From: Adhaeribacter rhizoryzae
Lineage (GTDB): Bacteria > Bacteroidota > Bacteroidia > Cytophagales > Hymenobacteraceae
Assembly (NCBI RefSeq): GCF_008629685.1
Contig: NZ_VWSF01000014.1
Location: 1 to 64,000 of the forward strand
Length of the DNA: 64,000 nt
Direction of reading: 5' to 3'
Shown here in pieces: positions 13,634 to 53,647 of the stretch. Under the pieces are notes generated by a model. The model saw only the letters and a list, made by a program, of their open reading frames with translations. It searched no databases and had not been told where the DNA came from. Made by a program: the position numbers and the translations under genes. Each line of letters starts with the position of its first letter. The stretch's first letter is position 1.

Positions 13634-14335
13634 TTATTCTTTCAGGTCGGCAGGCAATTCTTTAACCGCAATATTCCGGAAGCGATGCACCGCACCAGGG
13701 GCCCAGGAATCCAGAATATTCCAGCTTACTTCGGCCGGCGAGAACAAAGTTGTCCAGTGCGATTGTAAGCCAATCATGCCGGTAGTGGCCCCGGCGGTAA
13801 AGTCGTTTTTGGGTTGGGTCACGTCCCACATCTGCACGCCATTAATCCAGAGTGTAATATGCGGAACCTCCCCTACCATTCTTATCCTGAAGGAATTCCA
13901 ATCGTTGGGCCGCCATACTTTTGCCCGATCGGTGGCGCGCATAGGTTTACTTACCGGCATGCGTTCGCCCAATAAATTACCCGTACTGTTGGCGGCATCG
14001 TCTAACTCAATCTGGTAAGCAATGCCGCTTTCGGAGGAACGAATAAAAATACCGCCGTTCGTAAAAGAATCAATTTTGGCTTCGAGGTACAATTCGAAAT
14101 TCTTGTATTTTTTATCCGACAACAACACGCCACCCTGGCCGAACGGCTGCTGCGTCAGGACAATGGCGCCATCTTTTACCTGTACGCTGGGCGTGGTGCC
14201 CTGATGCGTGGTGCGGCTGATGTGCCAGCCTTTTAAATTTTTGCCGTTAAATATTCGTTTATAGCCGGCCGGAATCTGGGCTACCGTGCAGTTGGTTAGC
14301 AGCAAAAGTATAAGTAGGTTCAGGAGTAGTTTCAA
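13634..14335 (-). CDS. DUF1080 / 3-keto-disaccharide hydrolase-type protein
   Basis: 233 aa. A hydrophobic N-terminus with LTNC (Cys16) suggests a lipoprotein, though Asn before Cys is unusual. The rest is one concanavalin-like beta-sandwich of the DUF1080 family (FNGKNLKGWHISR.., GGVLLSDKKYKNFELYLEAKIDS, GGIFIRSSESG, NDWNSFRIRMVGEVPHITLWINGVQM). Some family members hydrolyse 3-keto-glycosides. The start appears to be TTG at 14335: an in-frame TGA lies three codons upstream and there is no nearby ATG. The 5-unit heptad array 14345-14379 ends about ten bases before this start. Neighbours are a sulfatase downstream and an FGE-like protein upstream. Confidence 0.8.
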   Translation of the reverse strand: MKLLLNLLILLLLTNCTVAQIPAGYKRIFNGKNLKGWHISRTTHQGTTPSVQVKDGAIVLTQQPFGQGGVLLSDKKYKNFELYLEAKIDSFTNGGIFIRSSESGIAYQIELDDAANSTGNLLGERMPVSKPMRATDRAKVWRPNDWNSFRIRMVGEVPHITLWINGVQMWDVTQPKNDFTAGATTGMIGLQSHWTTLFSPAEVSWNILDSWAPGAVHRFRNIAVKELPADLKE

Positions 14336-14344
14336 AGGCCTTCA

Positions 14345-14379
14345 AGTAATAAGTTAAAAGTTTTAAGTAATAAGTTGCT
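14345..14379 (-). repeat. Heptad array before the DUF1080 gene
   Basis: Five consecutive 7-bp units of the form AGTnnnn read on the + strand (AGTAATA, AGTTAAA and similar), which on the coding strand place TTATTACT-like units directly before the start. Same period and placement as the arrays in the nuo operon, but a different unit. Confidence 0.65.
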
Positions 14380-14424
14380 CACTTTTTCATTCGTGTCAGT
14401 TTCTGGCTGGTAAATATTCAAAGA

Positions 14425-14458
14425 GGAAGTCTCCGACTTCCGGAAGTTGAAAACTTCC
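14425..14458. repeat. Two adjacent small hairpins
   Basis: GGAAGT, 5 bases, ACTTCC occurs twice in a row (14425-14441 and 14442-14458). Short intergenic palindromic repeat of unknown role. Confidence 0.5.
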
Positions 14459-14561
14459 TGTAATCTATAGACACAAGTTACGCTTCGCTAAACTTGCGCC
14501 AGGGTAAGTGTTTAGGCAAAGTGATTCTAAAAATATTAACAGGTATGATTAAAAAAACATC

Positions 14562-14810
14562 CTATTTCACAGTTAAATACATTTTGTCCAAGGAGGTTAA
14601 TTGTTCTATAGCTCTTTTTAATTCAATTTTCTTCTTAATTATTAGAAAAAATTTTTTAATTGGATTTCTTTCATTCTTTATTACAACTTGGTACTTCAAA
14701 TTAATTTTATCTCTAATAATGCCAACTTTTTGCTGATACTCCGGGGTTGTCTTAACTATCTCTCGACTATTAAAAATAACTTTACTAGTTTGATTATTTA
14801 GAGTCTTCAT
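14562..14810 (-). CDS. Possible small basic protein of unknown function
   Basis: 82 aa, ATG start, Lys-rich and AT-rich in codon use. The sequence (KTLNNQTSKVIFNSREIV..) resembles nothing recognised and has no signal peptide or membrane segment. It lies between the DUF1080 gene and the FGE-like gene on the same strand, 67 bp after the FGE-like stop codon. An overlapping frame on the other strand looks less protein-like. Base composition unlike its neighbours suggests either a transferred gene or chance. Treat as tentative. Confidence 0.35.
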   Translation of the reverse strand: MKTLNNQTSKVIFNSREIVKTTPEYQQKVGIIRDKINLKYQVVIKNERNPIKKFFLIIKKKIELKRAIEQLTSLDKMYLTVK

Positions 14811-14877
14811 AGGTTTTTGTTAAATACTAACAATATAGACACCTTCATTAAAATTAAGCCAATCTATTAACTAACTG

Positions 14878-35759: not shown

Positions 35760-35766
35760 TTTTATA

Positions 35767-35905
35767 GTTATTCGTTATTCGTTGTTCGTTACTCGGATTT
35801 AACAAAGTACAACAACGAATAAATATAAAAACAACAATGCGTTACTTGTTATTGTGTCTTAAGGAATTAGAGCAGTCGAACAACAAATAACGAACAACGA
35901 ACAAC
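35767..35905. repeat. Inverted heptad arrays in the nuoC-nuoD spacer
   Basis: Four GTTRYTC units (35767-35794) begin 7 bases after the nuoC stop codon; four GAACAAC-type units (35878-35905) end 6 bases before the nuoD ATG. The second unit is the reverse complement of the first, so the transcript could fold and bring the stop and start codons together. Confidence 0.8.
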
Positions 35906-35911
35906 GCAAAC

Positions 35912-37168
35912 ATGGCAGAATATAAAACAGAAGAGAAGGTGAAAACCAATCTGGGATTAGAAAAAATTCCGGATTCGCTGCCTGCTCAGTATAACGAAAA
36001 CGAACGCGAACTTACCACGCTGAACCTGGGGCCAACGCACCCGGCCACGCACGGTATTTTCCAGAATATATTACAAATGGACGGCGAGAAAATTATCTCG
36101 GGTGTTCCAACCATTGGTTACATTCACCGGGCTTTTGAGAAAATTGCCGAACGCCGGCCGTTTTACCAGATTACCCCGCTTACCGACCGCATGAACTATT
36201 GCTCCTCGCCTATTAATAATATGGGCTGGTGGATGACGGTAGAAAAATTATTGGGGGTAAAAACCCCGAAGCGGGCCGATTACATGCGCGTAATTGTAAT
36301 GGAACTGGCCCGCATTACCGACCACCTGATTTGTAACTCAATTCTGGGCGTGGACTCCGGCGCTTTTACCGGCTTTTTATACGTGTTTCAGGAGCGGGAG
36401 AAAATCTACGAAATTTACGAAGAAATCAGCGGGGCTCGCTTAACTACCAATATGGGCCGCATTGGTGGCATGGAGCGTGATTTTACGCCGGTTGCCATTC
36501 AGAAACTGCGCGACTGGATGGCCGGATTCCCGAAAGTAATGAAGGAGTTCGAGTCGATGTTTACCCGTAACCGCATTTTCATGGACCGGATTAAAGACGT
36601 TGGTCCGATGACGGCGGAACGCGCCCTGAATTATGGCTTTACCGGCCCTAACCTGCGGGCGGCTGGCGTTGATTACGACGTGCGCGTAATGAACCCGTAT
36701 TCTTCCTACGAAGATTTCGATTTTGAAATTCCGGTGGGCACTACCGGCGACACGTACGACCGCTTTATGGTGCGTAACGAAGAAATCTGGCAAAGTTTCC
36801 GGATTATTCAACAGGCTTTGGAGAACTTACCCGAAGGTCCTTTCCACGCCGATGCACCGGAATATTTCCTGCCACCGAAGCAGGAAGTTTACCGCAGCAT
36901 GGAAGCTTTGATTTACCATTTCAAGATTGTAATGGGCGAAATTGATGCTCCGGTTGGTGAAGTGTACCACTCCGTGGAAGGTGGTAACGGTGAGTTGGGC
37001 TTTTACCTGGTGAGTGATGGCGGCCGTACGCCGTATCGCCTGCACTTCCGCCGCCCTTGCTTTATTTATTACCAGGCTTACCCCGAAATGGTGGTAGGCA
37101 GCCAGCTTTCCGATGCTATTCTGATTTTGAGTAGCATGAACGTTATTGCCGGCGAATTAGACGCTTAA
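35912..37168 (+). CDS. nuoD: NADH-quinone oxidoreductase subunit D
   Basis: 418 aa 49-kDa-type subunit forming the quinone cavity with NuoB. LNLGPTHPATHGIFQNILQMDGE, the His/Tyr region typical of the quinone head site, ERRPFYQITPLTDRMNY and the C-terminal DPVFGELDR-like end (here MNVIAGELDA) are seen. About 35 residues of a variable N-terminal leader precede the conserved part. Full length. Confidence 0.95.
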   Translation: MAEYKTEEKVKTNLGLEKIPDSLPAQYNENERELTTLNLGPTHPATHGIFQNILQMDGEKIISGVPTIGYIHRAFEKIAERRPFYQITPLTDRMNYCSSPINNMGWWMTVEKLLGVKTPKRADYMRVIVMELARITDHLICNSILGVDSGAFTGFLYVFQEREKIYEIYEEISGARLTTNMGRIGGMERDFTPVAIQKLRDWMAGFPKVMKEFESMFTRNRIFMDRIKDVGPMTAERALNYGFTGPNLRAAGVDYDVRVMNPYSSYEDFDFEIPVGTTGDTYDRFMVRNEEIWQSFRIIQQALENLPEGPFHADAPEYFLPPKQEVYRSMEALIYHFKIVMGEIDAPVGEVYHSVEGGNGELGFYLVSDGGRTPYRLHFRRPCFIYYQAYPEMVVGSQLSDAILILSSMNVIAGELDA

Positions 37169-37231
37169 AATTAATTTAATCAGCAGACTTCTTTCCAGTT
37201 AAAGAAGCCTGCTGAAATTGCTTATACATAC

Positions 37232-37741
37232 ATGGAGCAAACAACAACGCAAAACGAAGTACAATTTTCGGATGCGGCCATGGCCGAAATCAGAAGATAT
37301 ATTTCACATTATCCGGCCGACCGGAAAAAATCGGCCATTTTGCCTATTCTGCACATTGCCCAGGCCGAATTTGGTGGTTGGGTTAGCCCAGAGGTGCAAG
37401 ATAAAGTAGCCGAAATATTAGATATTCAACCAATAGAGGTATACGAAGTAGCTACTTTTTACACCATGTTCAACCTGAAACCGGTTGGCAAACACGTGCT
37501 GGAAGTATGCCGCACCGGCCCTTGCATGTTGCGCGGTGCCGACCACCTGATTGAACATTTGGAGAGCCGTTTAGGCTGCCACGTAGGCGAAAATAGTGCT
37601 GATGGCCTGTTTACCCTAAAAACAGTTGAGTGCCTGGCCGCTTGCGGTATGGGACCGATGCTGCAAATCCGGGAAAAATATTACGAGAACCTGGACCCGC
37701 AGAAAATGGACCAATTACTTGACGATTTAAGTAAAGAATAA
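37232..37741 (+). CDS. nuoE: NADH-quinone oxidoreductase subunit E
   Basis: 169 aa thioredoxin-fold [2Fe-2S] subunit of the NADH module (cluster N1a). Ligands C93, C98, C134 and C138 (CRTGPC and CLAACGMGP) are present. Together with NuoF and NuoG it shows this is the NADH-using 14-subunit form, not the 11-subunit form found in Bacteroides. Confidence 0.95.
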   Translation: MEQTTTQNEVQFSDAAMAEIRRYISHYPADRKKSAILPILHIAQAEFGGWVSPEVQDKVAEILDIQPIEVYEVATFYTMFNLKPVGKHVLEVCRTGPCMLRGADHLIEHLESRLGCHVGENSADGLFTLKTVECLAACGMGPMLQIREKYYENLDPQKMDQLLDDLSKE

Positions 37742-37744
37742 ATT

Positions 37745-37859
37745 GGTATCAGGTATTAAGTAGCAGGTATCAGAAATTATAAACAGATACTTGAAAATTC
37801 AGCCTGAAAAATAAATAATATAGCAAAGTCTTGATACTAGTGTCCTGATACTAGTGTCT
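37745..37859. repeat. Inverted heptad arrays in the nuoE-nuoF spacer
   Basis: Four GGTATCA-like units (37745-37772) start 3 bases after the nuoE stop codon; alternating TGATACT and AGTGTCC units (37832-37859) lie 13 bases before the nuoF ATG. The TGATAC core is the complement of GTATCA. Confidence 0.78.
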
Positions 37860-37872
37860 AAATGTATAGACA

Positions 37873-39219
37873 ATGGGACTAAAAATATTAACTGAACATA
37901 TAAACGTACCAGGCATTAATACCCTGGAAACCTATCGCAAAATGGGTGGCTACCGCTCCGTGGAGAAAGCCGTGAAAACCATGACGTCCGAAGAAGTAGT
38001 GGAAGAGGTGAAGAAATCGGGTTTGCGCGGTCGCGGCGGGGCTGGTTTCCCGACTGGTTTAAAGTGGAGCTTCCTGGCGAAGCCCGAAGGCAAACCGCGT
38101 TACCTGGTGTGCAACGCCGATGAATCGGAACCGGGAACTTTCAAAGACCGCGTACTGATGGAGAAAATTCCGCACGCGTTAATTGAAGGCATGATAACCT
38201 CCAGTTATGCGTTGGGTGCGCGTACCTCTTATATCTATATTCGCGGCGAATTAATGTTTGTGCTGCGGATTTTAGAAAAAGCAATTGCCGAATGTTATGC
38301 TGCCGGTTTATTAGGCGAAAATATTCTGGGTTCCGGTTACTCCTTAGATTTACACGTGCACCCCGGTGGTGGCGCTTATATCTGTGGCGAGGAAACAGCT
38401 TTATTAGAATCATTGGAAGGCAAGCGGGGTAACCCGCGGAATAAACCGCCTTTCCCGGCGGTTTGGGGCCTTTATGGCTGCCCAACCGTAGTAAACAACG
38501 TGGAGTCTATTGCTTCGGTGCCCTGGATTATAAACAATACCGGCGACGAATACGCTAAAATCGGCGTTGGCCGCAGTACCGGCACCAAACTAATTTCGGC
38601 TTCTGGCCACATCAATAACCCCGGCGTTTACGAAATTGAATTAGGCTTACCGGTTGAGGAATTTTTGTTCTCGGATGAATATTGCGGCGGTATCTGGAAA
38701 GGCCGAAAATTTAAGGCGATTGTAGCCGGTGGTTCTTCGGTGCCTATTTTACCCGGTGAATTATTCCTGAAAACCGCCGAGGGTACGCCCCGGTTAATGA
38801 CTTACGAATCTTTATCCGAAGGTGGTTTTGTAAGCGGTACCATGTTGGGTTCCGGTGGTTTTATTGTAATGGATGATACCACTTGTATTGTGCGCAATAC
38901 CTGGAACTTCTCCCGCTTTTATCACCACGAATCGTGCGGACAGTGTAGCCCTTGCCGCGAAGGAACCGGCTGGATGGAGAAAATATTGCATCGCCTCGAA
39001 CACGGCCACGGCAATATGCACGACATTGATTTATTGGTAAACGTGTCGAAGCAGATTGAGGGCAATACCATTTGCCCGTTGGGTGATGCAGCAGCCTGGC
39101 CGGTAGCCAGTGCGGTACGCCACTTCCGCGATGAATTTGAATGGCACGTGAAACACCCGGAAAAAGCAACTGCCCCAGGGGCCGTGTACAGCGGAGCCGA
39201 AGATTTGGCGTTTGCTTAA
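37873..39219 (+). CDS. nuoF: NADH-quinone oxidoreductase subunit F
   Basis: 448 aa FMN- and NADH-binding subunit with cluster N3. FMN/NADH site GRGGAGFPTG (53-62), glycine-rich GGGAYICGEETALLESLEG, and the [4Fe-4S] ligands beginning at C355 (ESCGQCSPCREG) plus the later Cys in NTICPLGDAA are all present. Standard length. Followed 30 bp later by an unrelated AT-rich ORF instead of nuoG. Confidence 0.96.
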   Translation: MGLKILTEHINVPGINTLETYRKMGGYRSVEKAVKTMTSEEVVEEVKKSGLRGRGGAGFPTGLKWSFLAKPEGKPRYLVCNADESEPGTFKDRVLMEKIPHALIEGMITSSYALGARTSYIYIRGELMFVLRILEKAIAECYAAGLLGENILGSGYSLDLHVHPGGGAYICGEETALLESLEGKRGNPRNKPPFPAVWGLYGCPTVVNNVESIASVPWIINNTGDEYAKIGVGRSTGTKLISASGHINNPGVYEIELGLPVEEFLFSDEYCGGIWKGRKFKAIVAGGSSVPILPGELFLKTAEGTPRLMTYESLSEGGFVSGTMLGSGGFIVMDDTTCIVRNTWNFSRFYHHESCGQCSPCREGTGWMEKILHRLEHGHGNMHDIDLLVNVSKQIEGNTICPLGDAAAWPVASAVRHFRDEFEWHVKHPEKATAPGAVYSGAEDLAFA

Positions 39220-39249
39220 CTAAAATTAAGGAATAAAATTTCTTAAACT

Positions 39250-39711
39250 ATGTTAGTACAAATTAGCATGGAATTAGTGATAATCCAATTTGAAAACGTT
39301 GGACGTAAATGTTTAATGCCACTAATTCTAAATTTTGCCAATCATCAAAAAAGAGTTGAAGAGGATAAGATTGTAAATGAAATAATTAAATACCTTGAAA
39401 AAACTGATGGAGTAGCTAATGTAATTAAACGAGGTGGAGGAATAGATGAATATAAGAACCTAAATGAAGCCTTTAATAAAGTTTTAGATATAAAGGAGGT
39501 AGACCATCAACAGGTAAGATACTTAAAGATTAGAGAAAAGGAGTTTTCCGAAAAACAAGAATTTAAGTATTTGGATGAGACATATTATTTAAAGGTGACA
39601 TATAGAGATATTACATCAATGCCTGTAAGGGTTATAAACGATAAAACAAGTCCTGAATTCATAGGTGATATCCCTCTGCCTGTTGTTGTTATTGAAAAAT
39701 ATTCAGATTGA
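39250..39711 (+). CDS. Unknown protein inserted between nuoF and nuoG
   Basis: 153 aa, soluble, no signal peptide; a second Met at residue 7 could be the start. No family recognised. The first half looks helical (NHQKRVEEDKIVNEIIKYLEKTDGVANVIKRGG), the second beta-rich (YYLKVTYRDITSMPVRVIND). Codon use is AT-rich (many AAA, ATA, AGA) compared with the GC-moderate nuo genes, which suggests arrival by transfer. It is on the operon strand and fits between nuoF and nuoG without disturbing either, so it is probably transcribed with complex I. The spacer after it (39712-39875) ends with a heptad array before nuoG. Confidence 0.6.
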   Translation: MLVQISMELVIIQFENVGRKCLMPLILNFANHQKRVEEDKIVNEIIKYLEKTDGVANVIKRGGGIDEYKNLNEAFNKVLDIKEVDHQQVRYLKIREKEFSEKQEFKYLDETYYLKVTYRDITSMPVRVINDKTSPEFIGDIPLPVVVIEKYSD

Positions 39712-39846
39712 GAGGATTCCATTTCTAATAATAAACTTGAGATTCTCACCTAACACTAAATAATAAATAAGGGGACAATAAATTATCCTTTTAAAAAGAA
39801 ATATACAAGAATAAATATATGTTAGTTTAATGTTGTAAAACCAACC

Positions 39847-39867
39847 GATGACTGACAACTGATAATT
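39847..39867. repeat. Heptad array before nuoG
   Basis: Three GAYnAYT units (GATGACT, GACAACT, GATAATT) end 8 bases before the nuoG ATG. No clear inverted partner was found, perhaps because the unknown ORF interrupts the original spacer. Confidence 0.6.
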
Positions 39868-39875
39868 AAATAAAA

Positions 39876-40868
39876 ATGGCTAAAATAACTTTTGACGGCA
39901 TTGAGGTAGAGGTAGAAGACGGAACTACCATCCTGAATGCTGCGCGTAAAATTGGCGGTAAAGTGGTGCCGCCGGCCATGTGTTACTATACGCCTTTAAA
40001 AGGCAGCGGCGGTAAATGCCGGGTGTGCCTCGTAAAAGTAACCCAAGGCTCGGCAAAAGACCCGCGCCCAATGCCTAAACTGGTAGCGTCTTGCGTAACG
40101 CCGGTACAGGATGGCATGGTGGTAGAAAACACCTTATCGCCGCAGGTACTGGAAGCCCGCAAAGGCGTAGTAGAAATGCTGTTAATTAACCACCCGCTGG
40201 ATTGCCCGGTTTGTGACCAGGCGGGTGAGTGTGATTTGCAAAACCTTTCTTATGAGCATGGCACCTCCGGCACCCGTTATGAAGAAGAGCGCCGTACTTT
40301 CGACCGCCAGGATATTGGTCCGCTGATTCAGCTGCACATGAACCGTTGTATTCTGTGCTACCGTTGCGTGTATACCGCCGACCAGATTACCGACAAACGG
40401 GTACACGGCGTATTAGGCCGCGGCGATGCTGCTGAAATTGGCACTTACATCGAAAATGTAATTGATAACGACTTCTCCGGTAATGTAATAGATGTGTGCC
40501 CGGTAGGCGCTTTAACCGATAAAACTTTCCGGTTTAAAAACCGGGTATGGTTTACCAAACCCGTTGATGCGCACCGCGATTGCCCGAAATGTTCGGGTAA
40601 AGTAGTGTTGTGGAACCGGGGCAGCGATGTATTACGCGTAACGGCCCGCAAAAACGAGTACGGCGAGGTGGTAGAATTTATCTGTAACGAGTGCCGGTTC
40701 GAGAAAAAAGAAATGTCGGACTGGATTATTGATGGCCCGCGCCACATTGCCCGTGCGTCTGTCATTTCGGCAAACCATTACGAATTGCCCGTGGTAAATC
40801 CGCAAATTATTGCCGACCTGCCCGAAAGTACCACCAAAGAATTGCACCTTATTCCAAGACCTATTTAA
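39876..40868 (+). CDS. nuoG: NADH-quinone oxidoreductase subunit G, short form
   Basis: 330 aa. Cluster ligands of the N-terminal half are complete: [2Fe-2S] C36, C48, C51, C73; His-Cys cluster H106, C110, C113, C119; [4Fe-4S] C158, C161, C164, C208; and a further four-Cys site C236, C239, C270, C273 matching the N7-type domain. The large C-terminal molybdopterin-oxidoreductase-like domain of classical NuoG (~900 aa in E. coli) is absent. The ORF ends cleanly and nuoH begins six bases later, so this is a natural short form and not a frameshift. Confidence 0.92.
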   Translation: MAKITFDGIEVEVEDGTTILNAARKIGGKVVPPAMCYYTPLKGSGGKCRVCLVKVTQGSAKDPRPMPKLVASCVTPVQDGMVVENTLSPQVLEARKGVVEMLLINHPLDCPVCDQAGECDLQNLSYEHGTSGTRYEEERRTFDRQDIGPLIQLHMNRCILCYRCVYTADQITDKRVHGVLGRGDAAEIGTYIENVIDNDFSGNVIDVCPVGALTDKTFRFKNRVWFTKPVDAHRDCPKCSGKVVLWNRGSDVLRVTARKNEYGEVVEFICNECRFEKKEMSDWIIDGPRHIARASVISANHYELPVVNPQIIADLPESTTKELHLIPRPI

Positions 40869-40874
40869 ACCCTG

Positions 40875-41960
40875 ATGGAAATACCCGTAATTGCCATACA
40901 AGCGCTTATTATCCTCGCCATTTTTGGTATAACCTTACTAATTGCTACGTACTGCACCTGGGCCGAGCGCCGGATTGCTGGTTTCCTGCAAGATCGTCCG
41001 GGACCCAACCGGGTTGGCCTCTGGGGATTAGGCCAGCCTTTAGCTGATGCCGTGAAGTTGTTTTTTAAAGAAGAGTTTATACCGGCCAATGCGAATAAGT
41101 GGTTATTTATTGCCGGCCCTTCGCTGGCTATGTTAACAGCCCTTATGAGCAGCGCCGTGGTTCCTTTTGGCAATACGTTGGTACTCGAAGATTTCGGGCC
41201 AATCCGGTTGCAGGGCATTGAGGTAAACATCGGGATGCTCTATATTTTTGGCGTGGTTTCGCTGGGCGTTTACGGTATTATGATTGGGGGTTGGGCTTCG
41301 AATAATAAATTCTCTTTATTAGGTGCTATCCGGGCAGCTTCGCAAAATATTAGCTACGAAATTGCCTTAGGCTTGTCTTTAATAGCGGTTTTGATGATGA
41401 GTGGCACCTTGTCTTTGCGGGAAATAGCCTTGCAGCAAGCCGAACCTTTGTTTGGTATTTCGGGCATGAACTGGAATATTTTTTACCAGCCCCTGGGCTT
41501 TATAATATTTTTAACCTGTGCTTTTGCCGAAACGAACCGGACACCATTTGACTTACCGGAATCGGAAGCGGAACTGGTAGGTGGCTACCACACCGAATAT
41601 GGTTCTATGAAACTGGGTTTATACCTTTTTGCGGAATACGTAAATATTATTGTGGTATCGGCTGTAATGAGCACCTTGTATTTTGGCGGTTTTAATTTCC
41701 CGTTCCAGAACGAGATTGGAGCGTTGCTTTCCAACGACCCGCGTATTGCGCATAATATTATTACCATTTTAGGAACCGTGGTTTTCTTCCTGAAAATATT
41801 TGCATTTATCTTCTTTTTTATGTGGGTACGCTGGACATTACCGCGTTTCCGCTACGACCAGTTGTTAAACCTGGGTTGGAAAGGATTGATTCCATTGGCC
41901 ATTATTAATATTGTTTTAACTGGCGGCTTTATTTTGTTATCCGAGCATTTTGGCTGGTAG
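40875..41960 (+). CDS. nuoH: NADH-quinone oxidoreductase subunit H
   Basis: 361 aa membrane subunit with about eight to nine helices joining the peripheral arm to the proton-pumping arm and lining the quinone entry. CTWAERRIAGFLQDRPGPNRVG and ETNRTPFDLPESEAELVGGYHTEY are the conserved loops. Six bases after nuoG. A DUF4160/DUF2442 pair follows it instead of nuoI. Confidence 0.95.
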   Translation: MEIPVIAIQALIILAIFGITLLIATYCTWAERRIAGFLQDRPGPNRVGLWGLGQPLADAVKLFFKEEFIPANANKWLFIAGPSLAMLTALMSSAVVPFGNTLVLEDFGPIRLQGIEVNIGMLYIFGVVSLGVYGIMIGGWASNNKFSLLGAIRAASQNISYEIALGLSLIAVLMMSGTLSLREIALQQAEPLFGISGMNWNIFYQPLGFIIFLTCAFAETNRTPFDLPESEAELVGGYHTEYGSMKLGLYLFAEYVNIIVVSAVMSTLYFGGFNFPFQNEIGALLSNDPRIAHNIITILGTVVFFLKIFAFIFFFMWVRWTLPRFRYDQLLNLGWKGLIPLAIINIVLTGGFILLSEHFGW

Positions 41961-42009
41961 TACTCCGAAATAATTGGGAATAACCATTTCGGCTTAAAAG
42001 TAAAACCAG

Positions 42010-42243
42010 ATGCCGACAGTTTTAAGACTACTTGGATTCAGATTTTTCTTTTATAGCAATGAGGGTACTGAACCAGCCCACATTCATGTTGAAAAAGGTG
42101 ATTGTGAAGCTAAATTTTGGTTAGAGCCTGTTGAACTGGTGTATTCAAATGGATTTTCGGCTAAAGAGATAAATCAACTAAGGAAATTAACGTTAGACCA
42201 TCAACAACTATTTAATAAGGCTTGGCATGAAGATTTTAGTTGA
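42010..42243 (+). CDS. DUF4160 family protein
   Basis: 77 aa. Matches the DUF4160 pattern (MPTVLRLLGFRFFFYSNEGTEPAHIHVEKGD..AKFWLEPVELVYSNGFSAKEINQLRKL). The conserved EPAHIHV segment suggests a His-based site, but no activity is established as far as known. The following DUF2442 gene overlaps its 3' end by 17 bp. Such pairs are common and mobile and have been suspected to be toxin-antitoxin-like; that is inference. AT-rich, inserted between nuoH and nuoI on the operon strand. Confidence 0.82.
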   Translation: MPTVLRLLGFRFFFYSNEGTEPAHIHVEKGDCEAKFWLEPVELVYSNGFSAKEINQLRKLTLDHQQLFNKAWHEDFS

Positions 42244-42472
42244 TAAGATAGCAGAAGCATCAGCCGTAGCGGTTTGGTTTGACGATATTAAAATGTACGT
42301 TAGGTTAGTAGATGGTCGGGAGTTAGGTGTGCCCCTTGATTGGTTTCCTAAATTAAGGGATTCTTCAACTGAGGAAAGAAACAACTGGCGGTTTATTGGC
42401 CGGGGAAAAGGCATCCATTGGGAATCTATTGATGAAGATTTATCTGTTTCGGGGCTTTTACGAACTAAATAA
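42227..42472 (+). CDS. DUF2442 family protein
   Basis: 81 aa DUF2442 protein (VWFDDIKMYVRLVDGRELGVPLDWFPKL, NNWRFIGRGKGIHWESIDEDLSVSGLL). The ATG overlaps the end of the DUF4160 gene by 17 bp in another frame, so the two are coupled and form a unit. Function unknown; the small fold is found as a partner of DUF4160 proteins. About 150 bp of non-coding sequence separate it from nuoI. Confidence 0.82.
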   Translation: MKILVDKIAEASAVAVWFDDIKMYVRLVDGRELGVPLDWFPKLRDSSTEERNNWRFIGRGKGIHWESIDEDLSVSGLLRTK

Positions 42473-42619
42473 GCGGATGAAGTACTTTACCAGATTCTTA
42501 CTCTTGAATGAAGGCGTAAGAACGAAGTAGAATTAAATTAAAATTAGTTAAGAATATTGTTCTCCGTAAAGCTTCTTAAATTTTTATAAGCTGCCAGAGA
42601 CTTTAATATTAATCAGAAA

Positions 42620-43147
42620 ATGCAGTTAACCAATAGAAAAAAAGTACTGGAACAGAAACCCATGACGGTAGCGGAGAAGATGTATCTTCCGGCTATTTTC
42701 AACGGACTTTCTATTACCATGCGCCACTTTTTCAAGAAAAAGCCGACTATCCAATATCCGGAGCAAACCAGAGAATTTGGCAAGGAATTTCGGGGCTTAC
42801 ACGTATTGCGCCGCGATGAACAAGGCCGGGAGCGTTGTACGGCCTGTGGTTTGTGTGCGGTAGCCTGTCCGGCCGAAGCCATTACCATGGTAGCGGGTGA
42901 GCGCAAAAAAGGCGAAGAGCACTTGTACCGCGAAGAGAAATACGCGGTATCGTACGAAATTAACATGCTGCGCTGCATCTTCTGCGGCTTGTGCGAAGAA
43001 GCCTGCCCGAAAGAAGCCGTGTTTTTGCAGAACGATAAAACCGTACCGCCCCGTTTTGAGCGCGACGAGTTTATTTACGGCAAAGACCGTTTGGTAGAGC
43101 CATTGAACCAGGCTAACTCAAAAGATAATATTAAATACCGGTACTAA
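42620..43147 (+). CDS. nuoI: NADH-quinone oxidoreductase subunit I
   Basis: 175 aa ferredoxin-like subunit with two [4Fe-4S] clusters (N6a, N6b). Ligand sets C73/C76/C79 with C83 and C119/C122/C125 with C129 are intact (CTACGLCAVACP, CIFCGLCEEACP). The N-terminal amphipathic segment fits membrane-arm docking. A heptad-type palindrome follows before nuoJ. Confidence 0.95.
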   Translation: MQLTNRKKVLEQKPMTVAEKMYLPAIFNGLSITMRHFFKKKPTIQYPEQTREFGKEFRGLHVLRRDEQGRERCTACGLCAVACPAEAITMVAGERKKGEEHLYREEKYAVSYEINMLRCIFCGLCEEACPKEAVFLQNDKTVPPRFERDEFIYGKDRLVEPLNQANSKDNIKYRY

Positions 43148-43174
43148 TTATTTAAGGTGCTGATTTGCTAATGT

Positions 43175-43230
43175 GCGAATTAGAAATTATTGCTTAACCA
43201 TTAACTCATAATTTCTAATTCATAACTCAT
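43175..43230. repeat. Inverted heptad arrays in the nuoI-nuoJ spacer
   Basis: Four AAYTYAT-type units (43203-43230) end 11 bases before the nuoJ ATG. The left side (43175-43195) holds three imperfect complementary units; the inner parts form a perfect 14-bp hairpin (GAATTAGAAATTAT with ATAATTTCTAATTC). Confidence 0.7.
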
Positions 43231-43241
43231 AATTGAAACGA

Positions 43242-43760
43242 ATGACTGGTAGTTTATTTTATTTCCTGACCTTTTTAACCTTGTTTGCCGCACTGGGCGT
43301 GGTGTTTTCGAAGAACCCGGTTTATAGTGTTCTATTCTTAATCCTGACCTTCTTCAGTTTATCGGGGCACTATATTTTACTCAATGCCCAGTTTGTGGCG
43401 GCGGTAAATATTATTGTGTATGCGGGTGCTATCATGGTGTTGTTCCTGTTCGTGATTATGTTCCTGAACTTGAACATGGATACGGAGCAGGCACAAAAAA
43501 AATCGGTCTTGACCAAAGTAGCCGGAGCCATTTCGGGCGGACTGCTACTGGTTATTATGATTGCCGTTTTAAAAGATGCTGAAGTAGGTTCTTACGATCC
43601 GGAAAACTTCGATTCGCAAATTGGTTTGGTTGAAAACCTGGGCCACCTGCTGTTCACGAAATATTTATTACCGTTTGAATTGGCATCCGTGTTGTTTTTG
43701 GTAGCCATGGTAGGTGCGGTAATGTTAGGGAAGAAAGAAACGCAGCAACGTCACTTTTAA
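43242..43760 (+). CDS. nuoJ: NADH-quinone oxidoreductase subunit J
   Basis: 172 aa from the ATG at 43242; the frame also opens at a TTG nine bases earlier, but ATG gives the usual MTGSLFYFLTFLTLFAALGVVFSKNPVYSVLFL start. Five membrane helices; the conserved NIIVYAGAIMVLFLFVIMFLN helix (with the pi-bulge region) is intact. A membrane-arm subunit at the quinone end. Confidence 0.94.
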   Translation: MTGSLFYFLTFLTLFAALGVVFSKNPVYSVLFLILTFFSLSGHYILLNAQFVAAVNIIVYAGAIMVLFLFVIMFLNLNMDTEQAQKKSVLTKVAGAISGGLLLVIMIAVLKDAEVGSYDPENFDSQIGLVENLGHLLFTKYLLPFELASVLFLVAMVGAVMLGKKETQQRHF

Positions 43761-43907
43761 AATATTTATGCAAATGGCGGCCGGTATTGCCGCCATTTGT
43801 ATTTAGATAAAAGCCCGATTTATTGGGTAAATAGCAAAATGCCGGTAACTTTGCGCCGCTTTTGCAGCACACAATTTTATATTAAAAGCTACTACAGCTA
43901 ATTAAAA

Positions 43908-44237
43908 ATGAACGAAATTCCGGAGGTAATCAGAACCATTCCTTTACAGTACTACCTGTTTTTCAGCAGCACCTTATTTGTTATTGGTATTATCGGCGTA
44001 CTTACCCGGCGCAACGCTATTATAATTTTTATGTGTATTGAGCTGATGCTGAATGCCGTAAATTTATTATTAACGGCTTTCTCGGCGTATCGCTCCGATG
44101 CCAACGGACAGGTTTTTGTATTTTTTATCATGGCCGTAGCAGCTGCCGAAGTGTGCGTGGGGCTGGCCATTATTGTTATGATTTACCGCAACTTACGCTC
44201 TACGGATATTAATATTCTGAGCAACCTGAAGTGGTAA
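43908..44237 (+). CDS. nuoK: NADH-quinone oxidoreductase subunit K
   Basis: 109 aa, three membrane helices. Conserved buried glutamates are visible in FMCIELMLNAVNLLL and AAAEVCVGLAIIV, which belong to the proton path. The 147-bp spacer before it holds no clear heptad array. Confidence 0.94.
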   Translation: MNEIPEVIRTIPLQYYLFFSSTLFVIGIIGVLTRRNAIIIFMCIELMLNAVNLLLTAFSAYRSDANGQVFVFFIMAVAAAEVCVGLAIIVMIYRNLRSTDINILSNLKW

Positions 44238-44308
44238 TAATTAGCCATTGGTAGCGAGACATTGGTATCAAGATTTTTTTAATAAAATATTTCTCGTTCG
44301 CAAAAGAC

Positions 44309-44329
44309 GAACAATGAATAACGAACAAC
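44309..44329. repeat. Heptad array before nuoL
   Basis: Three GAAYAAY units (44309-44329) end 11 bases before the nuoL ATG. It is the same unit as before nuoD. A short CTCGTTCG piece to the left gives only a partial inverted partner. Confidence 0.65.
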
Positions 44330-44340
44330 AAAACTAAAGC

Positions 44341-46290
44341 ATGCAAACAGACCTCTTACCCGCCACTAATTCCGACATGGCATTGTTCTGCTTACTTATC
44401 CCGCTTTTACCTTTACTCGGATTTCTGATCAACGGCTTAGGCAACCGTGTATTACCCAAAAGCCTGATTAGCTTAATTGGCTGCGGCAGCGTACTGGCCG
44501 CTTTTATAATTTCGCTTATCCTGTTTTTCCAGTTCGATGGCCGTCCTTACGTGGTAGATCTTTTCGATTGGATTAATGTAGGCAGCCTCCGGATTCCGTT
44601 CTCCTTCATGATCGACCAATTATCGCTGATTATGTTGCTGTTGGTAACGGGTGTGGGGTTTGTCATTCACGTTTATTCGGCGGGCTACATGAGCCACGAT
44701 GCCGGCTTTGGCAAGTTCTTTGCTTTCCTGAACCTGTTTATTTTCTCGATGCTACTGCTCGTGCTGGGTTCTAACTACGTAATGATGTTTATTGGTTGGG
44801 AGGGTGTTGGTTTGTGCTCTTACCTGCTTATTGGTTTCTGGAACAAAGTTACGCCGTATAATAATGCCGCTAAAAAAGCTTTTATTGTTAACCGCATCGG
44901 TGACTTAGGTTTCCTGTTAGGCATCTTCCTGTTATTTATCACCTTCGGCAGTGTTACTTTTGCCGATATTTTCCAGCAGGCCGGACAGTTACACGACGTA
45001 AACCAACCGGTTATCGTCGCCATTACCATGTTATTATTTGTAGGGGCGATGGGTAAAAGTGCCCAGTTGCCTTTATATACCTGGCTACCCGATGCAATGG
45101 CCGGTCCTACCCCGGTTTCGGCCCTGATACACGCGGCTACCATGGTTACCGCCGGTATTTACATGGTTATCCGCTCCAACGTATTATATACCCTCGCGCC
45201 TGCTACACTGGATTTTATAGCCATTATTGGTTTAGCCACCGCGGTTTTTGCCGCTACTATTGGCTTATTTCAGAACGACATTAAAAAAGTACTGGCCTAT
45301 TCTACGGTAAGCCAGTTGGGTTATATGTTTTTGGCGCTGGGCGTAATGGCTTATACCTCTTCTATGTTCCACGTGCTGACGCACGCTTTCTTTAAGGCTT
45401 TATTATTCTTAGGCGCGGGTAGCGTTATTCACGCCATGAGCGGCGAGCAGGATATCCGCAGCATGGGTGGCCTTCGCAAATATTTGCCCGTTACGTTTAT
45501 TACTTTCTTAATTGGTACGCTGGCTATTTCGGGTATTCCGCCGTTTGCCGGTTTCTTCTCCAAAGACGAATTATTGGCGCAGGTATACGAGCATAGCAAA
45601 ATCATGTGGGCCTTTGGTCTGTTAACATCTTTCATGACGGCCTTTTACATGTTCCGTTTGCTGTTCCTGACTTTCTTTGGCACCTTCCGGGGTACCGATA
45701 AGCAACGGCATCACCTGCACGAATCGCCGGCCAGCATGACCATTCCGCTGATTATCCTGGCTATTCTTTCTACCGTTGGTGGATTTATGGGGTTGCCGGC
45801 GGTATTCAGCGAAAACCATATCTTATCTAACTTCCTAAGCCCTATATTCGGGTATGCCCGTCAGGCAGTGCCATCGGCCTTTGAAGCGGCTCATTTGGAC
45901 CATGCCACGGAATATATGCTGATGGCTATTTCGGTAGCTGTAGCGGTAGTTGCTATTATTCTGGCTTATGTAATTTACGTGAGTAAAAAATCAGTTCCGG
46001 CCGATGAAAGAACCGAGCTTTCGCCGCTGCACAAACTGGTTTACAATAAATATTATATCGACGAAATTTATAATGCCCTAATTGTGCGGCCATTAATGTG
46101 GCTTTCTACGGGCTTGTACCGCTTTGTAGAGAAAGGGTTGGTAGACCCGATAGTGAATGGCTTCGGCAAAGGGGTTATTCTGGGCGGCCGGAACCTGCGC
46201 TTCCTGCAAACCGGCGCCATTGGCTTTTATCTTTTTGCCATGGTGCTCAGCATTGCCCTTATTCTGTTCCTGAACTTTATTATAAGATAA
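44341..46290 (+). CDS. nuoL: NADH-quinone oxidoreductase subunit L
   Basis: 649 aa antiporter-like, proton-pumping subunit with about 16 membrane helices and a C-terminal lateral helix. GWEGVGLCSYLLIGFW, LPDAMAGPTPVSALIHAATMVTAGIYM, and KAFIVNRIGDLGFLLG carry the conserved Glu/Lys/His of the antiporter fold. Normal length, 12 bp before nuoM. Confidence 0.95.
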   Translation: MQTDLLPATNSDMALFCLLIPLLPLLGFLINGLGNRVLPKSLISLIGCGSVLAAFIISLILFFQFDGRPYVVDLFDWINVGSLRIPFSFMIDQLSLIMLLLVTGVGFVIHVYSAGYMSHDAGFGKFFAFLNLFIFSMLLLVLGSNYVMMFIGWEGVGLCSYLLIGFWNKVTPYNNAAKKAFIVNRIGDLGFLLGIFLLFITFGSVTFADIFQQAGQLHDVNQPVIVAITMLLFVGAMGKSAQLPLYTWLPDAMAGPTPVSALIHAATMVTAGIYMVIRSNVLYTLAPATLDFIAIIGLATAVFAATIGLFQNDIKKVLAYSTVSQLGYMFLALGVMAYTSSMFHVLTHAFFKALLFLGAGSVIHAMSGEQDIRSMGGLRKYLPVTFITFLIGTLAISGIPPFAGFFSKDELLAQVYEHSKIMWAFGLLTSFMTAFYMFRLLFLTFFGTFRGTDKQRHHLHESPASMTIPLIILAILSTVGGFMGLPAVFSENHILSNFLSPIFGYARQAVPSAFEAAHLDHATEYMLMAISVAVAVVAIILAYVIYVSKKSVPADERTELSPLHKLVYNKYYIDEIYNALIVRPLMWLSTGLYRFVEKGLVDPIVNGFGKGVILGGRNLRFLQTGAIGFYLFAMVLSIALILFLNFIIR

Positions 46291-46302
46291 GTTAACCCCA
46301 AC

Positions 46303-47751
46303 ATGATTACAGCCTTATTACTCTTCTGGCCGGCCCTGGCTGGTGTACTGGTTCTGTTCATAAAAGGCCAGAACGCCAAGCGGGCGGCATTTGGAGCAGC
46401 CGTAGTAGAATTTATTATTGCTTTATATGCCATGCTGCAGTACCAGCCCAATGCGCAGGTGCAGTTCCAATATTTTCAGCCCTGGATCGAGAACTTCGGG
46501 ATTAATTTTGCCATTGGTATGGACGGCATCAGTTTGTTACTGGTTTTCCTGACTACCTTCCTGGTGCCTTTAATTATTTTATCGTCTTTCCCGCACTCCT
46601 ACAAAAACCCGAATGTATTTTACGCTTTAATCCTGTTTATGCAAATGGGCTTAATTGGCGTTTTCACTGCGTTTGATGCGTTCCTGTTCTATTTCTTCTG
46701 GGAGGTAGCCCTTATTCCAATTTATTTTATCTCAGCCGTTTGGGGTGGCGAGCGCCGGATTCCCATTACCTTTAAGTTCTTTATATATACCATTTTTGGT
46801 TCGTTGTTTATGCTGGTGGGGTTTGTTTACCTGTATTTCCAAACACCCGGCACGCATACTTCCGATATTAATGCCTTTTACCAGTTAAGCTTAGATACTA
46901 CGCAGCAAAGCTGGATATTCTGGTTTTTGTTTATTGCTTTCGCCATTAAAATGCCGGTTTTCCCCTTCCACACCTGGCAACCCGATACTTACACCGAATC
47001 GCCTACCCAGGCGACAATGCTGCTATCCGGTATTATGCTGAAAATGGGTATTTACGGCGTAATCCGTTGGTTATTGCCTATTGTGCCGCAGGGCGTAAGT
47101 CAATGGGACGGTTTGGTGCTGGTTCTTTCTATAATCGGTATTGTGTACGGTTCTATTATTGCTATACGTCAACGCGACCTGAAACGCTTAGTAGCTTATT
47201 CTTCTATCGGTCACGTGGGCCTGATTGCTGCCGGTATTTTTACCTTAACCGAACACGGCCTGCAGGGTGGCATTATTCAGATGCTGAGCCACGGCGTTAA
47301 CGTAGTTGGTTTATTCTTTATCATCGATATTATTTACCGCCGCACCAACACCCGCGACATTAAAAACCTGGGCGGTATTACCCAAACTACCCCGGCGCTT
47401 TCGATTTTCTTTATGATATTATTATTAGGTACCGTGGCCTTGCCGCTCACCAACGGGTTTGTGGGCGAATTTTTATTGCTGTCCGGGGTATTTCAATATA
47501 ATAACTGGATGGGCGCTATAGCCGGTACCACCATTATTCTGGGGGCAGTTTATATGTTGCGTATGTTCCAGGGCGTAATGTTCGGGGAGCAAAATGCCAA
47601 TACCGCAAATTTCCGGGATTTAACCGGTTTAGAAACCGCTGTTTTAGTTCCGCTGGTAGTAATGGTTTTCTGGATTGGTTTACACCCGAACACCTTCTTA
47701 AGCCTGACCGAACCAGCGGTTGGTCATTTATTAGGCATTATTAACAGATAA
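46303..47751 (+). CDS. nuoM: NADH-quinone oxidoreductase subunit M
   Basis: 482 aa antiporter-like membrane subunit with ~14 helices. FWEVALIPIYFI contains the conserved TM5 Glu; FHTWQPDTYTESPTQATMLLSGIMLKMGIYG is the broken-helix region. Normal length. The spacer after it is almost wholly made of heptad arrays. Confidence 0.95.
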   Translation: MITALLLFWPALAGVLVLFIKGQNAKRAAFGAAVVEFIIALYAMLQYQPNAQVQFQYFQPWIENFGINFAIGMDGISLLLVFLTTFLVPLIILSSFPHSYKNPNVFYALILFMQMGLIGVFTAFDAFLFYFFWEVALIPIYFISAVWGGERRIPITFKFFIYTIFGSLFMLVGFVYLYFQTPGTHTSDINAFYQLSLDTTQQSWIFWFLFIAFAIKMPVFPFHTWQPDTYTESPTQATMLLSGIMLKMGIYGVIRWLLPIVPQGVSQWDGLVLVLSIIGIVYGSIIAIRQRDLKRLVAYSSIGHVGLIAAGIFTLTEHGLQGGIIQMLSHGVNVVGLFFIIDIIYRRTNTRDIKNLGGITQTTPALSIFFMILLLGTVALPLTNGFVGEFLLLSGVFQYNNWMGAIAGTTIILGAVYMLRMFQGVMFGEQNANTANFRDLTGLETAVLVPLVVMVFWIGLHPNTFLSLTEPAVGHLLGIINR

Positions 47752-47753
47752 AC

Positions 47754-47858
47754 TTTAGATACTAGATATTAGATTTTAGATTAAAGAGGAAAGCTGGTTT
47801 TAATTATTAAATAATACTAATTACTAACAGCTAATCACTAATAGCTAACCGCTAAAAT
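47754..47858. repeat. Inverted heptad arrays in the nuoM-nuoN spacer
   Basis: Four nnTAGAT units (47754-47781) begin 2 bases after the nuoM stop codon; six CTAAnnn units (47817-47858) end directly against the nuoN ATG. The reverse complement of the left array reads as CTAAnnn/CTAGnnn units, so the arrays are inverted partners. Because 7 is not a multiple of 3, the TAA/TAG triplets fall in all three frames. Confidence 0.85.
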
Positions 47859-52852: not shown

Positions 52853-53095
52853 ATGCAAGTCAAAATAGCTTTATTTGGCATAACAAAAGAAATAATTGGG
52901 GCTTCTAAACTGAATTATCAGTTAAGCGAAAAAGCTGATGTAAATCAGTTACTAAGCAGCTTAAAAGCCGATTACCCCGCTCTGCAAAAGCTCACCTCAC
53001 TAATGATTGCGGTGAACGATGACTACGCTACGCCAGAGCAAACTTTATCAGCGCACGACGAAATTGCCTTAATTCCGCCGGTTTGTGGTGGGTAA
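52853..53095 (+). CDS. moaD: Molybdopterin synthase small subunit
   Basis: 80 aa ubiquitin-fold sulfur carrier. The C-terminal GG (PPVCGG) that becomes the thiocarboxylate is intact. It pairs with MoaE further downstream to convert cyclic pyranopterin phosphate to molybdopterin. A heptad array begins 5 bases after its stop codon. Confidence 0.93.
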   Translation: MQVKIALFGITKEIIGASKLNYQLSEKADVNQLLSSLKADYPALQKLTSLMIAVNDDYATPEQTLSAHDEIALIPPVCGG

Positions 53096-53100
53096 ATATT

Positions 53101-53128
53101 GTAGCAGGTAGCAGGTATCAAGTATCTG
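53101..53128. repeat. Heptad array after moaD
   Basis: Four GTAnCnn-type units (GTAGCAG twice, then GTATCAA and GTATCTG). The reverse complement resembles the CTGATAC array before moaE at 53614-53641, with which it brackets the small membrane-protein gene. Confidence 0.75.
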
Positions 53129-53296
53129 GATTATATGTATTTGAATCATTTGGATATTAAATGCTTGATGATACCTGATAATATATTTCTACCTTTAGTA
53201 AACTACAATACTAGTAAACTACTTTTAACACTGATTTTTATTGCGATGGTTCTATTTTAAATCAGAAATGAATTTAGTTTGATAGATATAGCAGAA

Positions 53297-53545: not shown

Positions 53546-53613
53546 CGTCTACTTAAACACATTAAAATGTACGATAGCAGCAGTCCATTATCATCAAAAT
53601 AAAAGTTAAAATC

Positions 53614-53641
53614 CTGATACCTAATACTAACTACCTGATAC
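53614..53641. repeat. Heptad array before moaE
   Basis: Four units: CTGATAC, CTAATAC, TAACTAC and CTGATAC, ending 6 bases before the moaE ATG. TAA/TGA triplets recur in all frames. It is the inverted partner of the array after moaD. Confidence 0.78.
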
Positions 53642-53647
53642 TAAAAA

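Follow-up and report, generated by a model that had tools for sequence, protein, structure and literature searches.

Inverted heptad arrays at gene ends in Adhaeribacter and its relatives: a possible dispersed hairpin repeat

Heptad Arrays in the Spacers of the nuo Operon

The window analyzed here, 64,000 nt long, is part of contig 6 of the 6.5-Mb genome of Adhaeribacter rhizoryzae (Bacteroidota; below, G000) and carries the nuoA–N operon, several spacers of which contain tandem arrays of degenerate 7-nt units (heptads) lying against the flanking genes. A sequence-only reading of this DNA had described such arrays as inverted pairs in the nuoC/D, E/F, I/J and M/N spacers and as single right-hand arrays before nuoG and nuoL; the spacers named there belong to this operon. 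In a strict scan of the whole window at periods 2–24, four arrays had period 7, two period 14, two period 21 and one period 24, and no other period of this range gave any; an Rfam scan of the window at the gathering threshold returned no matches. Of the named relatives found, A. aerolatus is the closest, with an identical NuoI protein and ~88% identical DNA.

Arrays were scored by the column identity of their heptad units, and the minimum free energy (MFE) of seven nuo spacers from the window was compared with that of 300 shuffles; all nuo arrays lie on the forward strand. In the C/D spacer, GTTRTTC-type heptads directly 3' of the nuoC stop (35760..35800; identity 0.86) and GAACAAC/GAATAAC heptads running up to the nuoD ATG (35874..35911; identity 0.86, with folding support) are inverted partners (MFE −34.5, z −3.8). 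The E/F left arm consists of GGTATCA-type heptads (37743..37774; identity 0.79), and its right arm, recognized in the sequence by eye (37832..37858), of two TGATACTAGTGTC(C/T) copies 14 bp, or two heptads, apart, which are complementary to the left arm (z −3.0) and end 14 nt 5' of the ATG. The I/J right array, of the AATTCAT/AATTTCT family (43200..43238; identity 0.79), stops 3 nt before the nuoJ ATG (43242), and its short left partner of ~2 units (43177..43190; sequence and folding) lies mid-spacer and not beside the stop (z −1.7, with an MFE as low in 20 of 300 shuffles). In M/N, TTAGATA/TTAGATT heptads directly 3' of the nuoM stop (47752..47787; identity 0.83) face CTAATNN heptads reaching the nuoN ATG (47800..47858; identity 0.74), with loose complementarity (z −1.5, 17 of 300 shuffles as low). 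The K/L spacer has an array on the right only (GAACAAT/GAATAAC, 44301..44334; identity 0.67), without a full left partner (z −0.6), and the right array before nuoG in F/G (39842..39868; from the sequence) is weak and sub-threshold. The sequence-only description is borne out fully at C/D and in part at E/F, I/J, K/L and M/N. The D/E (z −5.2) and J/K (z −3.0) spacers fold well without any array.

The TTGATACTNGTGTC-like 14-bp repeat before nuoF (37832–37858) has this form in five of eight Adhaeribacter genomes, by eye, and was not seen in A. aerolatus or in two others (G007 and G004); it may be a regulator site.

Period 7 in the Spacers of the Genome

The periodicity was measured in 235 spacers of 40–800 nt from 464 kb of this genome, with genes called by a hexamer model, so that starts are estimates, and a spacer was counted if its four-unit array score exceeded the 99% or 99.9% quantile of shuffles. 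At period 7, the 99% quantile was exceeded by 32 of the 235 spacers, where 2.4 are expected, and the 99.9% quantile by 28, where 0.24 are expected. Periods 4, 5, 6, 8, 9, 10, 11 and 12 gave 3, 1, 5, 7, 2, 2, 5 and 7 spacers at 99%, and 0, 0, 0, 4, 1, 0, 2 and 2 at 99.9%, respectively. The mean spacer autocorrelation, 0.296 at lag 7 against ~0.28 for most lags, is less telling than the array counts, as lags 1, 3 and 4 (0.347, 0.303 and 0.297) equal or exceed it. Sampling of 80 kb is noisy: the first 80 kb of the G000 stretches contain 1 period-7 spacer of 35, and the remainder, 24 of 162.

The unit varies from spacer to spacer; by eye, GAACAAC, CTAATTA, CCTGATA, AATTCAT, AACTGAT, ACTTATA, ATCGAAT, CCAACAT and others are seen. 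The excess of 7-bp periodicity over shuffled spacers, which the sequence-only reading had set as a check, is present, and its observation that period, position and inverted pairing recur as the unit changes is confirmed; this is hard to obtain from growth of a single repeat in one place.

A second inverted-repeat element (cattcaggagga...tcctcctgaatg) is present in heptad-bearing spacers of this genome (L094 1454–1631, L103 1321–1509 and L101 18448–18732); in L101, it sits between two heptad arms.

Heptads and Octads in Relatives

For relatives, orthologous nuo spacers were counted, which are not independent; 75 of 80 nuo loci were grouped (L025, L053, L063, L079 and L080 remained ungrouped), and four groups with fewer than 15 spacers were not scored. 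Period 7 exceeded the 99% quantile in 56 of 399 spacers of Hymenobacter (4.0 expected), 12 of 127 of Pontibacter (1.3), 11 of 36 of three other Adhaeribacter (0.4) and, weakly, 4 of 76 of Rufibacter (0.8). The Spirosoma group shows period 8 in 15 and period 7 in 9 of 146 spacers (1.5 expected), and Hymenobacter, period 8 in 8 of 399. Two Cytophagales metagenome-assembled genomes (MAGs) have period 7 in one of 19 nuo spacers, and none was found in 29 spacers of Flavobacteriales and 18 of Chitinophagales. The heptad-array pattern is real, strong and lineage-wide.

Blind 80-kb samples gave period 7 in 0/54 (G004), 1/46 (G020), 2/48 (G032), 1/38 (G016) and 3/33 (G002) spacers, and period 8 in 3/54 (0.5 expected), 1/46, 3/48, 2/38 and 0/33, respectively; those of G020, G032 and G016 are too small to judge. 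The G016 sample (L264–L267) also has period 11 in 6 of 38 spacers (0.4 expected).

Position, Pairing and Polarity of the Arrays

The position of the arrays was assessed on loci of this genome and its relatives pooled, where 31 of 125 arrays sharing an 18-mer were dropped and 94 left. Within 2 nt of the end of a coding sequence (CDS) lie 42 of them (6.8 expected at random placement), and within 8 nt, 80 (20.3 expected); among right-end arrays between tandem genes, 42 of 51 end at most 8 nt from the called start. In the Hymenobacteraceae, there are 122 arrays in 175 kb of spacers against 4 in 1.15 Mb of CDS.

Inverted pairing is a property of the individual spacer. A partner scoring at least 12 stands at the opposite end of the same spacer for 25 of 36 left arrays; when left arrays are compared instead with the other spacers in their group, 37 of 266 comparisons reach this score. 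The median score of the arm match is 19.5 in the own spacer and 6.0 in others (36 left arrays; p = 8e-9).

The two arms also differ in composition: between tandem genes, G exceeds C in 29 of 37 left arrays (C exceeds G in 4), and C exceeds G in 44 of 51 right arrays (G exceeds C in 6). As a mechanistic trait, strand polarity was rejected, being reversed in some stems of rnpB, the gene of the RNase P RNA, and in the M/N spacer of two Adhaeribacter genomes (G002 and G005); it is ascribed to selection at gene ends (only three convergent and three divergent arrays being available).

Turnover of Whole Spacers

Among the eight Adhaeribacter genomes, the unit at a given junction varies: TGATACT or CTAATTA in E/F; AATTCAT, CTAATTA or AACTATC in I/J; TTAGATA, TCGAATA or TTACCAT in M/N. 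The array-free J/K and A/B spacers are largely alignable by eye (G000, G001, G007, G006, G003 and G004, where present).

The comparison of Hymenobacter spacers was limited to B/C, C/D, G/H and I/J, with heptads in 36 of 101 spacers. Few orthologous heptad pairs can be aligned: one of two at CDS identity of at least 95%, two of 17 at 90–95%, and five of 48 at 86–90%. In H. duratus and H. piscis, the C/D flanks are 95% and 99% identical and the C/D heptad hairpins are unrelated, while the B/C spacer is almost identical; the H. piscis C/D spacer instead agrees in 86 of 106 columns with its counterpart in the more distant H. norwichensis, where the flanks are only 86% and 78% identical. At nuoG/H, H. 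persicinus has a near-empty site of 3 nt where H. metallicola, at 91% CDS identity, has a heptad hairpin of 91 nt; in other Hymenobacter, this junction holds an octad hairpin or an inverted repeat of the TGTCATGCTGA type. The B/C spacer is 2–5 nt long in Adhaeribacter (three loci), Rufibacter (seven) and Pontibacter (11); in Hymenobacter, it spans 65–186 nt (the longest including mis-set nuoC starts) and has an inverted repeat in 25 of 25 cases, 17 of them with period 7.

The ~110-nt inverted-repeat element TGTCATGCTGA...TCAGCATGACA was seen at the nuoG/H and H/I junctions of other Hymenobacter (L010, L011, L015, L016, L037 and others).

RNase P RNA Helix and Unit Families Within Genomes

The rnpB gene of this genome (Rfam RF00010, 258 bits) contains an array hairpin in one helix, presumably P12. 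Measured as the number of nucleotides between anchors, the length of this helix can be read for 34 of the 37 family genomes and is bimodal, short in 13 (19–35 nt) and long in 21 (74–111 nt), with none between; the long helices have period 7 in 12 cases, period 8 in six and neither in three. The 63 other Bacteroidota rnpB records, 20 of which were chosen for long matches, comprise 45 short helices, two long ones without a period and 16 unanchored records; one of the latter, G040, has a period-8 stem by a different anchor.

The units were searched in whole genomes on both strands with up to two (heptads) or three (octads) mismatches; the counts are numbers of matches, which may overlap, and not of loci, and rnpB itself contributes to them. 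CATTTAC is the unit of the rnpB helix in G002, G005 and G006 (not significantly periodic in G005) and has 61, 35 and 22 matches in these genomes, respectively, against 8 in G003 and none in G000, G001, G004 and G007. AACTGAT, the rnpB unit of G001 and G007 and not of G000, has 39 matches in G000, 18 in G001, 5 in the incomplete G007 and 0–2 in the five others. AATTCAT, the rnpB unit of G000, has 55 matches there, partly from two long arrays, and 0–18 in the other genomes, and GAACAAC has 10–95 in seven genomes and none in G004. The octad TTAGTGAT has 78 and 44 matches in G016 and G028, whose rnpB helix has this octad, 3 in G040 and none in five other genomes; the octad GAGTGAAT has 120 in G016, 43 in G040, 32 in G024, 17 in G036, 2 in G011 and none in three others. 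A. aquaticus (G004), with a short rnpB helix, has no match in the whole genome to any of the four heptad families tested, all units being from long-helix genomes, so that short-helix genomes could carry other families.

Two kinds of exceptionally long array were met with: two perfect AATTCAT arrays of ~11 units, far longer than others seen (G000:C8:97484–97558 and G000:C23:103357–103431), and ~215 nt of tandem GAACAACTAATAAC 14-mers, far longer than the usual arms (G006:C1:1582777–1582991).

These data bear on the possibility that each locus acquired its arrays independently, by polymerase slippage in place, preferably in steps of 7 nt, and fold-back template switching that copies arm to arm. 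The idea of 7-nt-step slippage is attributed to Mrazek 2007 by PMC4679880 and PMC4692102, which also state that heptamers are over-represented among the simple repeats of many bacterial genomes. Degenerate, permuted units resemble the products of such a process, and the likeness of Hymenobacter heptad spacers within a genome is barely above that between genomes (scores of at least 30 in 2 of 28 against 5 of 197 pairs; medians 11 and 9). Local slippage would not lead one to expect, however, that an rnpB unit recurs in its own genome and not in sister genomes, that the rnpB helix lengths are bimodal, or that a whole spacer is unrelated between flanks 95–99% identical, and we consider purely local origin unlikely.

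Tests for RNA Function

Instead, the arrays could be selected intercistronic RNA hairpins, whose arms pair in the nuo mRNA for stop–start coupling, insulation or message protection, the sequence being free as long as pairing is kept. Hymenobacter spacers often remain hairpins after their sequence has been replaced, be it by octad hairpins, plain palindromes or the unrelated inverted-repeat element, and arrays are commoner at tandem than at divergent starts (61/675 and 2/182 ends, p = 4e-5) and at tandem than at convergent stops (41/675 and 5/216, p = 0.03). The presence of arrays between convergent genes at all nevertheless speaks against this explanation, and five of the seven folded nuo spacers lack a significant array hairpin (two are array-free, and in three ~5% of shuffles or more fold as well).

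If mRNA pairing were selected, G–U should exceed A–C among the sense-strand mismatches. In 52 distinct tandem heptad stems, we counted 55 G–U and 74 A–C (p = 0.11); this is a weak test, since rnpB stems, in which pairing at the RNA level ought to count and which were taken as a control, give 36 and 24, and so its power is low. Genes with an array before the start are rich in A and poor in G there, diffusely and without a 7-nt register. Comparing 70 such genes with 200 drawn from 465, the predicted openness is equal at −20..−1 (0.53 with arrays, 0.54 without) and slightly higher with arrays at −6..+6 (0.60 and 0.53, p = 0.002); burial of start codons by array hairpins is not predicted. The composition and openness of these starts are compatible with initiation without a Shine–Dalgarno sequence and with a preference for A at position −3, as described in PMC6847099.

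For the suggestion that mRNA hairpins join stop and start codons or insulate translation, support is partial: the arms are predicted to pair, as at C/D (z −3.8), but the weak mismatch test shows no G–U excess and predicted start openness is not lowered. All in all, selected RNA hairpins are an improbable explanation of the arrays, though one to be reckoned with. The proposed link to start codons fares similarly: arrays are flush with gene ends, but they are also found at convergent stops and in the rnpB helix and are rare at divergent starts, so that a specific tie of the arrangement to operon start codons is less well supported.

A sequence-specific translation signal was set low, as the units differ and arrays also occur 3' of stops, between convergent genes and in rnpB. 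The same facts, together with the variation of the unit between species and the lack of a 7-nt register in the diffuse A enrichment before starts, make it very unlikely that the arrays are sites for a post-transcriptional regulator just 5' of starts, as proposed for the Beggiatoaceae TAACTGA repeats, even though many of them lie within a few nucleotides of starts and 39 matches to the AACTGAT family were counted in this genome.

Search for a Copying Agent

Seven of 16 genomes, G000 included, lack any match to reverse transcriptase domains, and reverse transcriptase was therefore rejected as the agent. Y1 transposases have 0–1 matches in G004, G011, G020 and G032, the four genomes in which the tested families are scarce or absent, and 1–10 in the other twelve, and the inverted doublets are dispersed and form hairpins, as would be expected of REPIN-like elements moved by a RAYT or another Y1 transposase. 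Yet four family-carrying genomes have a single Y1 match (G005, G007, G028 and G036), there is no conserved REP sequence, and a period-7 or period-8 array lies within 1.5 kb of the Y1 gene at only three of 30 loci fetched out of 42 matches, one of the three being rnpB beside an IS200-type gene. On these counts, the Y1 transposase was rejected as the agent, and mobilization of this kind seems highly improbable.

At that rnpB locus (L222; G028:C11:314791–315845), the octad-bearing rnpB is immediately preceded by a TnpA gene of the IS200 type.

Other Features of the Window

Elsewhere, the window has ACTTATT/ACTTTTA heptads on the reverse strand (14341..14378, in the spacer 14306–14877; identity 0.79), and, on the forward strand, a left arm of GTAGCAG/GTATCAA units (53099..53130; identity 0.76) 3' of the stop at 53095, with an inverted right arm of CCTGATA/CCTAATA units ~480 nt away, before the next ATG (53613..53645; identity 0.69).

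Two nuo spacers contain additional genes or open reading frames. Between nuoH and nuoI lies a DUF4160 and DUF2442 gene pair (42010–42472), which we take to be a toxin–antitoxin-like arrangement; an insert of 636 nt in A. aerolatus looks similar by eye, and the spacer is 42–91 nt long in G004, G002 and G005. The nuoF/G spacer contains a 153-aa open reading frame without a Pfam match (39250–39711); this spacer measures 59–314 nt in the other seven Adhaeribacter.

Discussion

Period 7, flushness with gene ends, inverted pairing, rnpB units common to other loci of the same genome and turnover of whole spacers are all observed. The reading we prefer, at somewhat less than even confidence, is that the arrays are a dispersed hairpin repeat, STRR-like and REPIN-like, tolerated at gene junctions and exchanged as blocks. 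The arrays would then be the two arms of small dispersed hairpin elements of ~80–100 nt, built of degenerate 7-nt (in some genomes, 8-nt) units, and many genomes of the group (not A. aquaticus for the tested families) would hold several unit families at many sites. Hairpins would be gained, removed or exchanged as whole blocks where self-folding DNA is harmless, that is, in short stop–start gaps, in spaces between convergent genes and in a variable RNase P RNA helix; a block would be flush with both genes because, at many operon junctions, no more than a few nucleotides originally separated them. Spread would probably proceed by copying in trans, slippage in unit-length steps may keep the arms repetitive, and selection near starts may favor the orientation with an A/C-rich, G-poor right arm. 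Among the roles offered by the sequence-only reading, a repeat-generating process comes closest to these findings, and a start-codon role is less supported.

Several observations weigh against the dispersed hairpin repeat. No mobilizing gene was found by the reverse transcriptase and Y1 searches of 16 genomes, no target-site duplication has been established, and copies within a family are permuted and not identical, unlike those of a typical miniature inverted-repeat transposable element (MITE). Swaps are often from one hairpin to another, which also fits selection for structure, and spacer exchange by interspecies recombination importing whole spacers is possible. Hymenobacter heptad spacers share little within genomes at the score-30 level, and the blind samples of family carriers, small as they are, are low (2/38 at period 8 in G016 and 3/33 at period 7 in G002). 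The rnpB-unit comparison covered 10 of the 21 long cases of the family and G040, with units taken from those same genomes; AACTGAT matches are most numerous in G000, whose rnpB helix has AATTCAT, and GAGTGAAT matches in G016, whose helix has another octad. The control with GAGTGAAT read backwards gives 38 matches in G024, more than the count of 32, so that the count is not specific there, and the backwards control is uninformative for the mirror-like CATTTAC and TTAGTGAT.

More tentatively, and as a speculation with rather less to recommend it, a process may exist that copies hairpins of 7- or 8-nt units between loci and swaps them, stop to start, for hairpins of other units, with the rnpB helix as a trap recording the active family; the same process might lie behind the cyanobacterial STRRs, in which case these repeats would form a class of mobile DNA that spans phyla and is marked by its structure and not by any fixed sequence.

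Heptamer repeats are known from cyanobacteria, Xanthomonas, Beggiatoaceae and a few Bacteroidetes (PMC4679880, PMC4692102), and we found no accepted origin for them. Their origin becomes tractable here, where named sister species differ by single hairpin gains or swaps at fixed operon junctions, and one rnpB helix may serve as a single-locus readout of the family active in a genome. Intergenic hairpins of these operons should also not be taken for conserved regulatory RNA.

Comparison With Known Repeats

STRRs are degenerate tandem arrays of heptamers, intergenic and dispersed, in heterocystous cyanobacteria, and Vioque in 1997 (cited in PMC2858038) reportedly found STRR heptamers inside the RNase P RNA of these organisms. 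The arrays described here are likewise degenerate intergenic tandem heptamers (122 in 175 kb of spacers against 4 in 1.15 Mb of CDS), and they enter RNase P RNA, with period 7 in 12 and period 8 in six of 34 genomes. They differ in that the host (Adhaeribacter) belongs to the Bacteroidota, the unit varies by spacer, inverted pairs are flush with gene ends, and some genomes use period 8.

That such arrays were not described in Bacteroidota, as the sequence-only reading had it, is too strong: PMC4679880 reports TAACTGA direct repeats before starts in Beggiatoaceae, cyanobacteria and five Bacteroidetes. These, too, are heptamer arrays a few nucleotides before starts, and the AACTGAT family is present here; one set in F. 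litoralis is reversed just 3' of a stop, some Bacteroidetes and Microcystis have sets interspersed with further heptamers, and close relatives may have shorter, repeat-free spacers (PMC4679880). In the main genome of that study, there is one unit, related heptamers being seldom repeated, and one inverted case in 170 sets, whereas here units are many and inverted pairing is common. In the part of the literature covered, we met with no account of operons in which inverted heptad pairs are flush with the genes, of Bacteroidota with heptads in this rnpB helix or of period-8 forms.

The P6b stem of the Nostoc trnL intron has heptad-repeat sides, as does the rnpB stem here, and has repeatedly shifted between two unit classes (PMC4476775); there, however, the account concerns two classes in one intron, and here many classes in many spacers and in rnpB. 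The GGGAATC repeats of Xanthomonas and GGGGA(T/C)T repeats of Nostoc are intergenic heptamer arrays, with an inverted pair shown and with variation in length and sequence between close species, but each has one G-rich unit and was studied for quadruplexes (PMC4692102). REPINs, like the arrays here, are extragenic inverted doublets that are predicted to form hairpins and make up within-genome families, but they are linked with RAYT genes and with groups of REP sequences (PMC3116915), neither of which was found here. The arrays work like STRRs and REPINs without showing all defining features of either, and they are filed with the heptamer repeats.

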